A stretch of DNA of 64,000 nucleotides, taken from assembly GCF_004004565.1 (NCBI RefSeq), contig NZ_SACM01000004.1, positions 310,001 through 374,000 of the forward strand. Reading direction: 5' to 3'. The position numbers and the translations under genes were made by a program. The DNA comes from Inhella crocodyli (lineage in GTDB: Bacteria; Pseudomonadota; Gammaproteobacteria; Burkholderiales; Burkholderiaceae_C). Positions 49,603 to 55,192 of this stretch are shown in pieces. The notes under the pieces were generated by a model. It saw only the letters and a list, made by a program, of their open reading frames with translations, searched no databases and was not told the DNA's origin. Each line of letters starts with the position of its first letter. Within the stretch, counting starts at the first letter, position 1.

Positions 49603-50649
49603 TCAGCGCAGCGACGCGTTCAGCCTCGCCAAGGCCTCGGTGCCCGGGCACAGCGCAGCCTCGTCCAAGCGGTTCAGCGCGCCCGCGGGCAGCTTCATTT
49701 GCTGGTGCAGGGTGCGCGGCTCGGGGTTCACGTAGATCAGGCCCGTGGGCAGCTCGCCCTGGGCCTGCAGGCGTTGCACGGTGGTCATGGCGCTCAGGCG
49801 GTCGCGCGGGTCGTGGTCGGCTTGCAGCTTGCGCAGGCGCAGCAGGCTGCCGTCGGCCTGGGGCACGTCCATCACCGCCGCGTCGCCCGTGGGGGCCTCG
49901 GCCAGGTCGATGAAGTCGATGCGGTTGAGCGCGGCGTTGTGCTCGCGCACGTGGTCGTAGCTGCGCGTGCTGCCGGCGTGGTTGTTGAAGGCCACGCAGG
50001 GGCTCACCACGTCGATGAAGGCGGCGCCGCCATGCTGCAGGGCGCCCTGGATGAGGGGCACCAGCTGCGCCTTGTCGCCGCTGAAGCCGCGCGCCACGTA
50101 GCTGGCGCCCAGCTGCAGGGCCAGGCTCACCAGGTCGATGGCCACGTCGGTGTTGGTCGCGCCCTTTTTGCTGCGGCTGCCGGCGTCGGCCGTGGGGCTG
50201 AACTGGCCCTTGGTGAGCCCGTACACGCCGTTGTTCTCGACGAGGTAGACCATGGGCACACCGCGGCGCATGGCGTGCGCGAACTGCCCCAGGCCGATGG
50301 AGGCGGAGTCGCCATCGCCGCTGACGCCCAGGTACAGCAGCTCGCGGTTGGCCAGGCTGGCGCCGGTGAGCACGCTGGGCATGCGCCCGTGCACGCTGTT
50401 CAGGCCGTGGCTGGCGCTCAGGAAGTAGTCGGGCGTCTTGCTGCTGCAGCCGATGCCGCTCATCTTGGCCACGCGGTGCGGCTCGATGTCCAGCTGCCAG
50501 CAGGCTTGGATGATGGCGGCACTGATGCTGTCGTGCCCGCAGCCGGCGCACAGGGTGCTGATGCGGCCCTCGTAGTCGCGCCGCGTGTAGCCCACCTTGT
50601 TCTTGGTGAGCGTGGGGTGGTGCAGGCTGGGCTTGGCGATGTAGGTCAT
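49603..50649 (-). CDS. 2-oxoacid:acceptor oxidoreductase beta subunit
   Basis: A 348-residue thiamine diphosphate-binding subunit of a ferredoxin-type 2-oxoacid oxidoreductase. Cysteines for a proximal [4Fe-4S] cluster are in TLCAGCGHDS (C34, C37), GIGCSS (C68) and VSPC. The ThDP/Mg motif starts GDGDSASIG (111-119). It oxidises a 2-oxoacid plus CoA and passes electrons to ferredoxin or a flavoprotein. The substrate (2-oxoglutarate, branched-chain or other) cannot be told. It overlaps the alpha subunit gene by four bases. Confidence 0.92.
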   Translation of the reverse strand: MTYIAKPSLHHPTLTKNKVGYTRRDYEGRISTLCAGCGHDSISAAIIQACWQLDIEPHRVAKMSGIGCSSKTPDYFLSASHGLNSVHGRMPSVLTGASLANRELLYLGVSGDGDSASIGLGQFAHAMRRGVPMVYLVENNGVYGLTKGQFSPTADAGSRSKKGATNTDVAIDLVSLALQLGASYVARGFSGDKAQLVPLIQGALQHGGAAFIDVVSPCVAFNNHAGSTRSYDHVREHNAALNRIDFIDLAEAPTGDAAVMDVPQADGSLLRLRKLQADHDPRDRLSAMTTVQRLQAQGELPTGLIYVNPEPRTLHQQMKLPAGALNRLDEAALCPGTEALARLNASLR

Positions 50650-52475
50650 GCGGGGCTCCCAACGGCGGCTTGTTGGACCGATTGGGTGATGGCGTCGCGG
50701 ATGAAGCGCGCGGTGATCGGCGTGCCGTCGAAGTGCAGCAGCTTGCGCAGCTTCTTGGGGTCGACTTCGAGCTGGTTCACCAGCAGGGTGCGCAGCTGGC
50801 CGTCGCGGTTTTGCTCGACGACGAAGACCGTGTCGTGCGCGTCGATGAACTCGCCCACCGAGGCGGCGAAGGGGAAGGCGCGCACGCGCAGCGCGTCCAG
50901 GTGCACGCCGGCCTGCGCGAGCTCGTGCAGGGCCTCGTCCATGGCCGGGGCAGTGCTGCCGAAGTAGACGACGCCCAGGCGCGTGCCTTGGGCGGCGGCG
51001 CGCACGGCGGGCTGCGGCGCCAGCTGCGCGGCCGTGCGCATCTTGCGCTGCAGGCGGTCGGCGATGTAGCGGTAGTCGTCGCCGCGCTCGCTGTACACGG
51101 CCAGCGCGTTGTGCGTGCTGCCGCGCGTGAAGTACGCGCCCTTGCTGGGGTGCGTGCCGGGCAGGGTGCGCCAAGCCAGCGCGTCGCCGTCCACGTCCTT
51201 GTAGCGCTCGAGCTTGCGCCCGGCATCCAAATCCTCGCGGGTCAGCACCTTCCCCCGGTCGTAGCGGCGCGCGTCGTCCCAGTGGAAGGGGCGGCACAGG
51301 CGTTGGTTCATGCCGATGTCGAGCTCGCTCATCACGATCACCGGCGTTTGCAGGCGGTCGGCCAGGTCCAAGGCGGTGGCGGCGAACTCGAACAGCTCGG
51401 CCGGGTCTTCGGGGAAGAGCAGCACGTGCTGCGTGTCGCCGTGGCTGGCGTAGGCGCAGGCCAGCAGGTCGGCCTGCTGCGTGCGCGTGGGCATGCCGGT
51501 GCTGGGCCCGCCACGCTGCACGTTGACGATGGTCAGCGGCACCTCGGCGAAGTAAGCGAAGCCCAGGAACTCCTGCATCAGGCTGATGCCGGGGCCGCTG
51601 GTGGCGGTGAAGGCGCGCGCGCCGTTCCATCCCGCGCCCAGGATCATGCCGATGGCGGCGATCTCGTCCTCGGCCTGCACGATGGCGGCCTTGACCTCGC
51701 CCGTCTCGGGGTCGGTGCGGAACTGCTTGCAGTAGGCCTGGAAGGCCTCGGCCACCGAGGTGGACGGCGTGATCGGGTACCAGGCGCACACGGTGGCGCC
51801 GCCGTAGACCATGCCGAGCGCCGTCGCCGCATTGCCCTCGACAAAAATGCGGTCGCCCACGGCGTTGGCGCGTTGCACGCGCAGGCCCAAGCCTTGCTGC
51901 GCGAGGTGCTCGCGCGCGAAGGCCGCGCCCGCGCGCAGCGCCTGCACGTTGCTGTCCAGCAGCTTCTCTTTGCCCTTGTACTGCTCGGCGAACAGGGTTT
52001 CGATGACGGGCAGCTCGACCTGCATCAGCTCGGCCAGCGCGCCCAGCACGAGGATGTTCTTGAACAGCGTGCGCTGGCGCGGGTCCTCGTAGCTGGCGTT
52101 GCAGATCGCCGTGGCCGGCATGCCGATGGCGGTGATGTCGTCGCGCAAGCTGCCCGGTGGCAAGGGCTTGGTGCTGTCGTAGAACAGGTAACCGCCCGGG
52201 TCGAGTTCGGCCACGTCGGCGTCCCAGGTCTGCGGGTTCATGGCCACCATCAGATCGATGCCGCCGCGGCGCCCCAGCCAGCCCTGCTCGCACACGCGCA
52301 GCTCGTACCAGGTGGGCATGCCTTGGATGTTGCTCGGGAAGATGTTGCGGGGGCTGACCGGCACGCCCATGCGCAAGATGGCGCGCGCCAACAGTTCGTT
52401 GGCGCTGGCGCTGCCGCTGCCATTGACGTTGGCGAACTTGATGACGAAGTCGTTGGTGGATTCGATGCGGCTCAT
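50646..52475 (-). CDS. 2-oxoacid:acceptor oxidoreductase alpha subunit (gamma-alpha fusion)
   Basis: A 609-residue fusion. The gamma domain comes first (residues about 10-200; GSGSASANELLARAILRMG near the start), then the alpha pyrimidine-binding domain (about 205-420; YPITPSTSVAE and TSGPGISLMQEFLGFA) and the transketolase C-like domain (to 609). ATG 52475 is preceded by AAAGGAA. This gamma-alpha fused form with a separate beta gene is the KorAB/OFOR arrangement. A large inverted repeat separates it from the flavoprotein gene upstream in the same direction. Confidence 0.92.
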   Translation of the reverse strand: MSRIESTNDFVIKFANVNGSGSASANELLARAILRMGVPVSPRNIFPSNIQGMPTWYELRVCEQGWLGRRGGIDLMVAMNPQTWDADVAELDPGGYLFYDSTKPLPPGSLRDDITAIGMPATAICNASYEDPRQRTLFKNILVLGALAELMQVELPVIETLFAEQYKGKEKLLDSNVQALRAGAAFAREHLAQQGLGLRVQRANAVGDRIFVEGNAATALGMVYGGATVCAWYPITPSTSVAEAFQAYCKQFRTDPETGEVKAAIVQAEDEIAAIGMILGAGWNGARAFTATSGPGISLMQEFLGFAYFAEVPLTIVNVQRGGPSTGMPTRTQQADLLACAYASHGDTQHVLLFPEDPAELFEFAATALDLADRLQTPVIVMSELDIGMNQRLCRPFHWDDARRYDRGKVLTREDLDAGRKLERYKDVDGDALAWRTLPGTHPSKGAYFTRGSTHNALAVYSERGDDYRYIADRLQRKMRTAAQLAPQPAVRAAAQGTRLGVVYFGSTAPAMDEALHELAQAGVHLDALRVRAFPFAASVGEFIDAHDTVFVVEQNRDGQLRTLLVNQLEVDPKKLRKLLHFDGTPITARFIRDAITQSVQQAAVGSPA

Positions 52476-52545
52476 CGTTGGATTTCCTTTGCGTGAGTGC
52501 GCGGAGCGACTGCGCGTCCAGGGTCGCTTGGGCGCGTGCCTCGGG

Positions 52546-53139
52546 GCAGCCCGCAGGCGCTGTCCGCCCTGCACCCGGAGTTCCTTTTGTCTTGCCAAAA
52601 GGAACCAAAAGCGCCGCCCCGGCTCCAGCGCCCCAGCCTGCGGCTGGGGTTCCCTGCGCTGCTCGTTCCGGGGGGCTGCGGGATTGAACTCCCTGCGCTC
52701 ACTGCGTTCGCTCCGGTCAGACAGCAATCCCGGGTCAGTGCTTGAAGCGCGCTGCGCGCGCGCCCCCCTGCACTGCGCTGCTCGGCGCCTACGAACGGGG
52801 CAACAGCCGGAACAGCCGAATACCGAACAGCCCGGACTTCAACCTTTGGCGCCGCTTCTCGGCTGTTGGCTGCTGGGCTGTTCGCCCCGTTTGACGAGCC
52901 GAGCAGCGCAGCCGAGTCCGGCGCGCGCGCCAGCGCGCTTCGTGCACTGACTCCGCCCGACTGTCTGACCGGAGCGAACGCAGTGAGCGCAGGGAGTTTC
53001 GGGCGGGCCGGGCTTGGCGAGCAGCACAGGGCACCCCCGCCAACGGCGGGGGCGAAGGCTGCCGGGGCGGGCGCTTTTCCCCCCTTTTGGCAAGACAAAA
53101 GGGGGTCGGGGTGCAGGGGCGAAGCGCCCTGCGGGCTGC
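52546..53139. repeat. large inverted repeat made of two structured repeat units
   Basis: Two roughly 295-bp units lie head-to-head in the 685-bp gap between the flavoprotein and the alpha-subunit gene. The central 38 bp match perfectly (52687-52724 versus the reverse complement of 52961-52998). So do 20-bp blocks at 52583-52602 and 53083-53102, and the outer ends 52546-52557 and 53128-53139. Each unit has two internal hairpins: 10-6-10 (52580-52605; 53080-53105) and 8-3-8 (52631-52649; 53034-53052). Stem bases differ between units but pairing is kept. No gene is present; open frames here are repeat-derived. Confidence 0.85.
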
Positions 53140-53160
53140 ACCTCTGGTGCGCCCACCCGC

Positions 53161-54969
53161 TCACCCCCGACACCCCACCCCCACCTTCGCCGTCGTCAGC
53201 AAAAACTTCTGCATGTCCCACGCCCCCGTCGGACAGCGCTCGGCGCACAGGCCGCAGTGCAGGCACACGTCCTCGTCCTTGACCATCACCCGCCCGGTCT
53301 TCAACTCGGGGCTGACCAACAGCGCCTGGTCCAGATTCAACGACGGTGCGTTCAAGCGGGACCGCAGGTCCGCCTCGTCGCCGTTGGCCACGAAGCTGAT
53401 GCAGTCCGTCGGGCAGATGTCGGTGCAGGCGTCGCACTCGATGCACAACTTGGGCGCGAACACCGTTTGCACGTCGCAGTTCAGGCAGCGCTGCGCTTCC
53501 TTGAACGCCGTCTTCGCGTCGAAGCCCAGCTCCACCTCCACGCGGATGCTGGCCAGGGCCTTCTCGGCCTCGGCCCAGGGCACCTTGAAGCGCAGGTCGT
53601 TGCTCGGGGCGTTGTCGTAGCTCCACTGGTGGATGCCCATCTTTTGGGACACCAGGTTCACGTGCGGCGCGGGGCGCTGGCGCAGGTCCTGGCCGTTCAG
53701 GAACTGGTCGATGCTCACCGCCGCCTCGTGCCCGTGGGCCACCGCCGTGATGATGTTCTTGGGGCCGAAGGCCGCGTCGCCGCCGAAGAACACGCGCTGC
53801 AGGCTGCTTTGGTGGGTGAGGGGGTCGAGCACCGGCAGGCCGTCGCGGCCGAAGTCGATGCCCGCGTCGCGCTCGATCCAGGGGAAGGCGTTTTCCTGCC
53901 CCACGGCCAGCAGCACCTCGTCGCAGGGCAGGTCCACGGTGCGGCCCGTGGGCACGAGCTGGCGGCGGCCTTGCGCGTCGGTCACCGAGTCGACGATCTC
54001 GAAGCGCATGCCCGTGAGCACGCCGCCCTCCAGCAAGAAGGCCACCGGCGCGTGCTGCGGCAGGATGGGGATGCCCTCGTGCTCGGCGTCTTCCTTCTCC
54101 CAGGGGCTGGCCTTCATGGCCTCGTAGGTGGAGCGCACCGTCACCGTCACGCTCTCGGCGCCCAGGCGCTTGGCGCTGCGGCAGCAGTCCATCGCGGTGT
54201 TGCCGCCCCCCAGCACCAGCACGCGGCGGCCGACGGTCGTCACGTGGCCGAAGCTCACCGAGGCCAACCAGTCGATGCCGATGTGCACTTGGGCTTTCGC
54301 GTCCCAGCGGCCGGGCAAGTCCAGGTCGCGGCCGCGCGGCGCGCCGGTGCCCACGAACACGGCGTCCCAGCCCTCGCTCAGCAGGGCCTTCATCGACTCG
54401 ATGCGCTGCCCGCTGCGGAAGCTCACCCCCAGGCGCAGCACGTGGTCGACCTCCTCGTCGATCACTTCCTCCGGCAGCCGAAAGCGCGGCACCTGGCTGC
54501 GCATGAAGCCGCCGGCCTTGGCCTCGGCGTCGAACACGGTCACTTCATAGCCGGCGGCGGCCAGGTCGCGCGCCACGGTCAGGCTGGCCGGGCCGGCGCC
54601 CACGCAGGCCACGCGGCGGCCGTTGCGCGCGGCGGCGGCGATGGGGCTGGGCATGCGCGCGTGGATGTCGGCGCCCTTGAGGTCGGCGGCCACGCGCTTC
54701 AGGCGGCAGATGGCCACCGGTTCGGGCCTTTGCGCCTGGGCCGCTTCCACGCGGCCGCGGCGGCAGGCAGGCTCGCAGGGGCGGTCGCAGGTGCGGCCCA
54801 AGATGCCGGGGAAGACGTTGCTGGCCCAGTTCACCAGGTAGGCCTCGTCGTAGCGGCCTTGGGCGATGAGCCGGATGTACTCCGGCACGGGCGTGTGGGC
54901 CGGGCAGGCCCATTGGCAATCGACGACCCGGTGGTGGTACGCCGGGTCGTGGGTGTTTGTGGGCTGCAC
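53161..54969 (-). CDS. FAD/Fe-S oxidoreductase (GltD-like) with two ferredoxin-type clusters
   Basis: A 602-residue electron-transfer flavoprotein. The N-terminal GltD-type Fe-S region (CQWACPAHTPVPEYIR; RTCDRPCEPACRRG) is followed by FAD binding (GAGPASLTVARDLAAAG, residues about 118-134) and NAD(P)H binding (VLGGGNTAMDCCR). A C-terminal 2x[4Fe-4S] ferredoxin domain has CIECDACTDICPTDC and CLHCGLCAERCP. It probably links NAD(P)H to the 2-oxoacid oxidoreductase encoded downstream. The GTG start is chosen because AAGGAG lies nine bases upstream. Confidence 0.9.
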   Translation of the reverse strand: MQPTNTHDPAYHHRVVDCQWACPAHTPVPEYIRLIAQGRYDEAYLVNWASNVFPGILGRTCDRPCEPACRRGRVEAAQAQRPEPVAICRLKRVAADLKGADIHARMPSPIAAAARNGRRVACVGAGPASLTVARDLAAAGYEVTVFDAEAKAGGFMRSQVPRFRLPEEVIDEEVDHVLRLGVSFRSGQRIESMKALLSEGWDAVFVGTGAPRGRDLDLPGRWDAKAQVHIGIDWLASVSFGHVTTVGRRVLVLGGGNTAMDCCRSAKRLGAESVTVTVRSTYEAMKASPWEKEDAEHEGIPILPQHAPVAFLLEGGVLTGMRFEIVDSVTDAQGRRQLVPTGRTVDLPCDEVLLAVGQENAFPWIERDAGIDFGRDGLPVLDPLTHQSSLQRVFFGGDAAFGPKNIITAVAHGHEAAVSIDQFLNGQDLRQRPAPHVNLVSQKMGIHQWSYDNAPSNDLRFKVPWAEAEKALASIRVEVELGFDAKTAFKEAQRCLNCDVQTVFAPKLCIECDACTDICPTDCISFVANGDEADLRSRLNAPSLNLDQALLVSPELKTGRVMVKDEDVCLHCGLCAERCPTGAWDMQKFLLTTAKVGVGCRG

Positions 54970-55192
54970 CAGGTGTCTCCTTGCGGCCTTGAATGACGGT
55001 GCCCCGGTGGGGCGTGCGGCAGTCTCCGCCCGCCAGAGGGCCCCGGGCAGGTGGAAAACCCAAGGCTTTGCGGGGTCTTTGACGGCGCTCAAACCCATCG
55101 CGCCCGGCGCCCAGGGCATGACGCTGGGTAAAGCAATGCAAAGGCAGCCCTTGCCAAAGTCAGGGTTAGCCCCGCCCCCCGACACTGGCGGC

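Follow-up and report, generated by a model that had tools for sequence, protein, structure and literature searches.

At the attC sites of integrons, the folded single-stranded DNA of one strand is recognised, and the structure is kept while the sequence drifts. REPINs are described as inverted doublets of REP sequences that are thought to be moved by RAYT (PMC3116915), and TnpA-REP is described as processing single-stranded REP and requiring its structure (PMC8266576). A further dispersed repeat, the BRE, is presented as a 90-bp sequence of Bordetella and other Betaproteobacteria, whose region yields small RNAs (PMC3110155). In this work, we analysed an intergenic repeat of Inhella crocodyli contained in a window of 64,000 nucleotides (the whole stretch of DNA that was analysed). 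Taking all the evidence together, we hold it at about even probability that this repeat is a copy of a dispersed, non-autonomous mobile element of the Burkholderiales, REPIN-like but far larger, and recognised as folded single-stranded DNA. Among the papers listed by literature searches, no title or abstract start describes this element.

The repeat is an imperfect palindrome of 594 bp that occupies most of an intergenic gap of 685 bp (52476-53160), and both bordering genes are of oxidoreductase type and lie on the minus strand (Table 1), in agreement with the oxidoreductase operon named in a preliminary description of this locus. The same description had proposed two facing units of about 295 bp with a perfect 38-bp match; inverted repeats are present at this place, and the longest of them without a mismatch measures exactly 38 bp, but the units are the two inverted arms of one element. 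Complementarity between the arms amounts to 77% for 52543-52620/53065-53142, 87% for 52687-52754/52931-52998 and 73% for 52754-52808/52876-52930. Read from the centre outwards, each arm begins with GAGnAGCGCAG, the closing stem S1, whose sequence is free, a short hairpin E that is GCGCGC in most cases, and TTCGTGAACTGACT, and continues with the D stem, CTGTYTGA, three CGnAG units, GAGTT, D', S1' and CGAGCAnCGCAG; next come hairpin C, hairpin B and a terminal hairpin. The stems of the outer hairpin B differ between the arms by the paired change previously described, and an A-T pair in the 8-bp stem of hairpin C is also changed in both partners, the other arm having C-G and not the G-C originally given.

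Table 1. Features of the element and its neighbours, in window coordinates.
Feature	Position	Strand	Basis or remark
Whole element, arms inverted	52546..53139	.	Ends placed by means of almost identical copies from other genomes
Left arm module, three-way junction	52654..52783	- (sense)	Covariance model R1, 131.2 bits
Right arm module	52901..53029	+ (sense)	Covariance model R1, 130 bits
38-bp perfect inverted match, left copy	52687..52724	-	Contains most of the D-hairpin loop with CGNAG units
38-bp perfect inverted match, right copy	52961..52998	+	
Outer hairpin B, left, GTTCC...GGAAC	52580..52605	.	
Outer hairpin B, right, CCCCC...GGGGG	53080..53105	.	
Hairpin C, left, 8-bp stem CCCCAGCC/GGCTGGGG	52631..52649	.	
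Hairpin C, right, 8-bp stem CCCCCGCC/GGCGGGGG	53034..53052	.	
Centre, inter-arm stem and loop; gene-carrying place in a few related elements	52784..52900	.	
Flanking gene, POR gamma/alpha domains, 2-oxoacid:ferredoxin oxidoreductase type	50646..52475	-	Pfam
Flanking gene, pyridine-nucleotide and 4Fe-4S oxidoreductase domains	53161..55056 (start codon provisional)	-	Pfam

Head-to-head order was found in 62 of 64 motif pairs lying less than 700 bp apart, some redundancy remaining among these loci. Three elements of the set, E42, E298 and E230, have one module only, and the right arm of E42 retains one copy of the flanking GAGCAGCGCAG. The element E160 (L007) carries an extra symmetric hairpin pair in both arms (C9, 160388-160470 and 160924-161006) that is absent from other copies; arms can therefore grow in step.

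What is conserved is a module of about 130 nt that forms a three-way junction, a larger unit than the two hairpins recognised at the outset. Alignment A1 comprises 51 modules of many genera, drawn from the first 60 of 73 references with 9 short or odd ones omitted; on it, RNAalifold predicted 36 pairs, 30 of them with compensatory double changes. A structure of 27 pairs showed double changes in 26, pairing in 92.1% of 1361 cells (65.4% after shuffling, 30-47% after sliding) and a covariation score of 0.665 (0.179 shuffled, 0.07-0.10 slid); having been derived from the same alignment on which it was scored, this structure enjoys a bias in its favour, and its margin over every slide is very large. 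The fold of the arm module is conserved by covariation while its letters change. The preliminary description had argued that a folded form, as DNA or RNA, is selected, and had suggested a covariance model as a check: the argument withstands both of the refuting outcomes named there, since copies are many and these 51 modules, from many genera, covary far above both kinds of control. The double changes also contradict the idea of a neutral relic, in which an old palindrome would persist through mutation bias or through gene conversion between its arms. Such a relic would be in keeping with the lack of an ORF-encoded transposase in the element and with the modules missing in E42, E298 and E230; however, compensation is seen inside single modules, which arm-to-arm conversion cannot produce, and we consider this explanation, already contradicted, to be highly improbable. 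A simpler module of about 100 nt without hairpin E occurs in G239 and other genomes, several times singly, so the doublet is not universal. At loci L283-L293 (G239, G147, G240 and G070), in other families of the order, this shorter and often single module is followed by the same CCTTTCTTTG hairpin.

Copies are numerous, as the preliminary description had supposed when it recommended a BLASTN search. The segment 52546-52842 gave 22 BLAST matches in 10 places of its own genome (G000), which makes it a repeat far beyond chance; nine of these places are elements and one is a solo end hairpin. The latter (G000:C12:127177-127214, L022) is a terminal hairpin TGAGAGCCCGCAGG...CCTGCGGGCTCTCA with convergent genes on either side, that is, element ends without the inside. 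The covariance model located 15 modules in G000, five elements having two strong modules, one having a strong and a weak one, and three having one. All six genomes of the genus that were searched contain the module (15 in G000, 5 in G001, 29 in G002, 36 in G003, 13 in G004 and 1 in G005). Across the order, the arm model matched 23 of 300 genomes, among them its own, from nine families (E up to 1e-6); many distant matches scored only 46-60 bits, in a scan whose filters lose weak matches and which lists at most 11 scored modules per genome. A search with the whole element matched 11 of 60 genomes at 1e-5, again including its own, and a pattern scan of named genomes yielded at least 118 stretches. 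Among the 80 matches listed, the named genera are nearly all Burkholderiales, among them Roseateles, Paucibacter, Rubrivivax, Methylibium, Variovorax, Rhodoferax, Hydrogenophaga and Xenophilus, and some matches come from metagenome bins that bear no finer label than Proteobacteria, Pseudomonadota, Gammaproteobacteria or Methylotenera. Plasmid and phage collections gave no match at 1e-5.

For the finer analysis of the module, 301 motif hits were reduced to 230 unique ones, 217 with full context, 169 with both flanking repeats and 116 non-redundant modules. The strict three-unit form of the D loop is found in 57 of the 116; 45 of the 59 misfits were inspected and none was counted. In the 57 modules, Watson-Crick pairing reached 96.5% for x1-y3, 84.2% for y1-x3 and 98.2% for x2-y2, against 41, 43 and 48%, respectively, expected from column composition, the apical loop was GCA in 45, GAA in 11 and GTA in 1, and the GA/GA step was retained in 54. 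The tip of the hairpin is therefore a triloop, C-GNA-G, whose stem contains GA/GA and GNA/GNA steps. In RNA, GNRA tetraloops are commoner. According to the title of the work given as reference 47 in PMC6479982, GNA trinucleotide loops form extraordinarily stable DNA minihairpins. The DNA parameters of ViennaRNA hold no bonus for GNA loops, and folding energy therefore cannot decide between DNA and RNA.

Mismatches in the closing stem S1 indicate which strand is selected. The pairing rule applied gives credit to Watson-Crick pairs alone and makes no distinction among mismatches; were the fold required to the same degree on both strands, the counts would be equal. On each module's own strand, read from the centre outwards, the 116 modules show 1253 Watson-Crick pairs and markedly unequal mismatches: 41 G.T vs 5 A.C, 17 G.G vs 2 C.C, and 34 G.A vs 1 C.T. 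Tallied per module, G.T exceeds A.C in 32 and the reverse is seen in 3; the p values of this strand bias (4e-8 and 4e-7) are too small because the modules are related. The G.A mismatches are not taken as main evidence, as 16 of 25 GA cells share one stem position that may be a bulge, and the D stem, with neither G.T nor A.C by the same pairing method, carries no strand information. Thus, the fold is not needed equally on both strands.

The bias was then set against the direction of the neighbouring genes. The G.T to A.C ratio is 12:1 in modules antisense to flanking codirectional genes (34 modules) and 5:1 in sense modules (28 modules, too few to decide by themselves); elsewhere it is 11:2 in convergent (21 modules), 1:0 in divergent (6) and 12:1 in unclassified contexts (27). 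Because the bias holds in modules antisense to the mRNA, read-through host mRNA is not the selected molecule. This bears on the explanation that the element serves in the mRNA, as an intercistronic stabiliser, an attenuator or a bidirectional terminator. A huge stem does form on paper, as the preliminary description had pointed out (the RNA fold of 52500-53180 reaches -506 kcal/mol, vs -355 with an sd of 5.7 for 20 shuffles), yet the 12:1 ratio indicates that this mRNA fold is not what is selected. Gene context also speaks in part for a role in the mRNA: the 88 places classified comprise 58 codirectional, 26 convergent and 4 divergent ones, vs 394, 53 and 64, respectively, of the 511 gene pairs less than 400 bp apart as predicted by the same crude gene caller, so that the element is over-represented at convergent sites (p 9e-6) and under-represented at divergent ones (p 0.03). 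These counts cover places with a gene on both sides, excluding 20 places distant from genes, 1 within a predicted gene and those near locus ends, and the skew is also that expected if promoter-damaging insertions are lost. Against a function in the mRNA, both terminator-like sites found fall outside the element, and the operon exists without it in G003, G005 and G010; effects of this kind may exist, yet they leave the covariation unexplained, and we regard them as a quite unlikely explanation of the element.

Selection thus acts on the own strand of each arm, and the molecules that remain to be considered are single-stranded DNA and an RNA transcribed outwards from the centre. A loss of C by deamination that is specific to this strand would likewise require it to be single. 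The RNA version would consist of two divergent small RNAs, each a three-way junction transcribed outwards, belonging to a dispersed small-RNA family. The strand bias fits any single strand read in this direction, and small RNAs are reported from the BRE region (PMC3110155), a repeat whose kinship to the present one is hypothetical. On the other hand, there is no promoter-like site in 52400-53300, and the 70 centre-side bases of 111 modules are conserved, as judged by eye, only in the last ~15, which look like a GC-rich central stem and not like promoter hexamers. Furthermore, the apical loops are GNA triloops instead of the GNRA tetraloops common in RNA, and Rfam gave no family at gathering score for 52300-53400 (best 26.2 bits vs a gathering score of 88). 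We consider such small RNAs unlikely, and in the preferred reading the selected folded strand would be single-stranded DNA; RNA likewise tolerates G.U and tandem G.A, which counts against settling on DNA.

Folded single-stranded DNA could also act in replication or repair, with the modules as single-strand initiation or protein-loading sites, one for each strand, and their dispersal as a side effect. Plasmid ssi sites and single-stranded DNA origins fold in a similar way, and the element has one module per strand, each requiring its own strand folded. Nevertheless, such sites would be dispensable, given that modules range from 1 to 36 among the genomes of one genus and that 23 of 300 genomes of the order matched; we judge this role very unlikely.

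Mobility of the element, on which the preferred reading depends, is well supported. The site of the window holds an element in G002 and G004 and, in G001, one running into the contig end, whereas it is empty in G003, G005 and G010, where only about 57-62 bp separate the matched genes. In G002 and G004, the flanking genes share ~81% identity with those of the window, but the same-site copies have only 53% (G002) and 42% (G004) identity to the window copy; three other copies of its own genome are 80-85% identical to it (gaps counted in the identities of copies; 14 chosen elements compared, 4 of its own genome's 9). Copies therefore follow the genome and not the site, by independent insertion or conversion, and gene conversion could be an alternative cause of the homogenisation within genomes. 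Whole units at different places within G002, G003 and G004 form pairs with identities of 94.5-95.4% over 588-609 bp. A case of transposition was also considered for two G002 elements to which the model gave equal scores, and rejected, as both are part of a ~4.1-kb segmental duplication of 97% identity.

Of eight further sites, E298 was the one whose two flanks lie near each other in a relative; G002, G003 and G005 have no element there. At this site, where G000 has a full element, G001 (L103) has an end-like fragment adjoining a different palindromic repeat, which suggests that repeats are drawn to this spot. A clean gain of a whole element was found in none of the genome pairs compared, the nearest relative, G001, having that fragment and the other repeat at E298. 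No usable flank pair was present in relatives for E230, E163, E160 and E268; in each of the five relatives, the flanks of E42 (L003) are either widely separated or split between contigs, the neighbours of E1574 (L006) and E29 (L008) differ in the relatives where a flank was found, and the flanks of one G001 element lie on two G000 contigs. Elements often mark rearrangement points, in a comparison where the G001 and G004 assemblies are fragmented. Inspection of 17 elements by eye revealed neither a target duplication nor a fixed target.

A few related elements enclose genes in their centre. In L084 (G004:C46:64500-68352, 900-2350), arms that are 95% identical over 250 bp (89% over 335) enclose a gene with a PEP-CTERM signal just below the cut-off (20.4 vs 20.7 bits), possibly a passenger. 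The arms of L302 (G168:C72:37000-39100, 420-1700) are 82% identical over 285 bp, with 31-bp outer repeats that are perfect by eye and an uncharacterised ORF of ~100 aa in the centre. L300 (G304:C6:380300-382700, 735-1712) has two arms around RelE-like and HTH ORFs of toxin-antitoxin type, both below cut-offs, and may be two half-elements, as its right arm is closed by an inverted repeat of its own. All other arm pairs inspected have short centres; L163, considered as one element with a 4.8-kb cargo, was rejected as two separate elements.

With the integration of these findings, the following mechanism may be proposed for a mobile element recognised as folded single-stranded DNA. Read outwards from the centre, each module of ~130 nt would adopt on its own strand the shape of a three-way junction with a GNA mini-hairpin at its top, the strand being presumably exposed as single-stranded DNA, for example at replication. 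A putative enzyme acting in trans would recognise the two folded modules as a doublet and might copy or move the unit into intergenic space, and the inverted order would offer one correct fold on each strand. If true, an elaborate fold of single-stranded DNA, not RNA, is kept by selection at many places in many genomes, constituting a second and much more complex example of the REPIN plan and posing the question of which protein reads the fold. On the same condition, counting G.T vs A.C per strand and transcription direction reveals the selected strand without experiment, and annotators are warned against equating strong covariation in intergenic repeats with a non-coding RNA. More tentatively, and with a probability clearly on the lower side, the element may represent a new class of mobile elements, with a folded single-stranded unit of ~130 nt arranged as an inverted doublet, moved by a putative enzyme, spread through the Burkholderiales and able to carry a central passenger gene.

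Compared with known systems, the element resembles the BRE, by the description given for the latter, in being intergenic, GC-rich, suspected of mobility and present in Betaproteobacteria including Comamonadaceae; by the same description, the BRE differs in its length of 75-91 bp and its often tandem arrangement (PMC3110155). It shares with MITEs the terminal inverted ends, the lack of an encoded transposase gene, the intergenic location and the dispersal as whole units, but differs from them in the maintenance of its internal folds by covariation. A target duplication was not visible by eye in 17 elements, and a transposase search with PF01797 (Y1_Tnp) found no parent element. Like attC, it would be a folded single strand whose structure is kept over its letters, although its fold is another one and it is an inverted doublet. 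The closest likeness in plan is to REPINs, which, as they are described, are also inverted doublets of two structured units, extragenic and many per genome. However, the unit is here a three-way junction of ~130 nt vs the 20-40-bp palindrome given for REPINs, the invariant columns of A1 hold no conserved GTAG/CGTC tag, and copies number few to tens vs hundreds. Y1_Tnp/RAYT genes occur in all six genomes of the genus, 1 to 3 in each, but a RAYT flanked by cognate repeats was not found when 10 Y1_Tnp loci of the six genomes were compared with 13 elements, the longest common stretch being 15 bp. Since tag, unit size and RAYT adjacency all fail, the element is not classed as a REPIN, although it appears to work like one: its plan is that proposed for REPINs, with a far larger recognition module.
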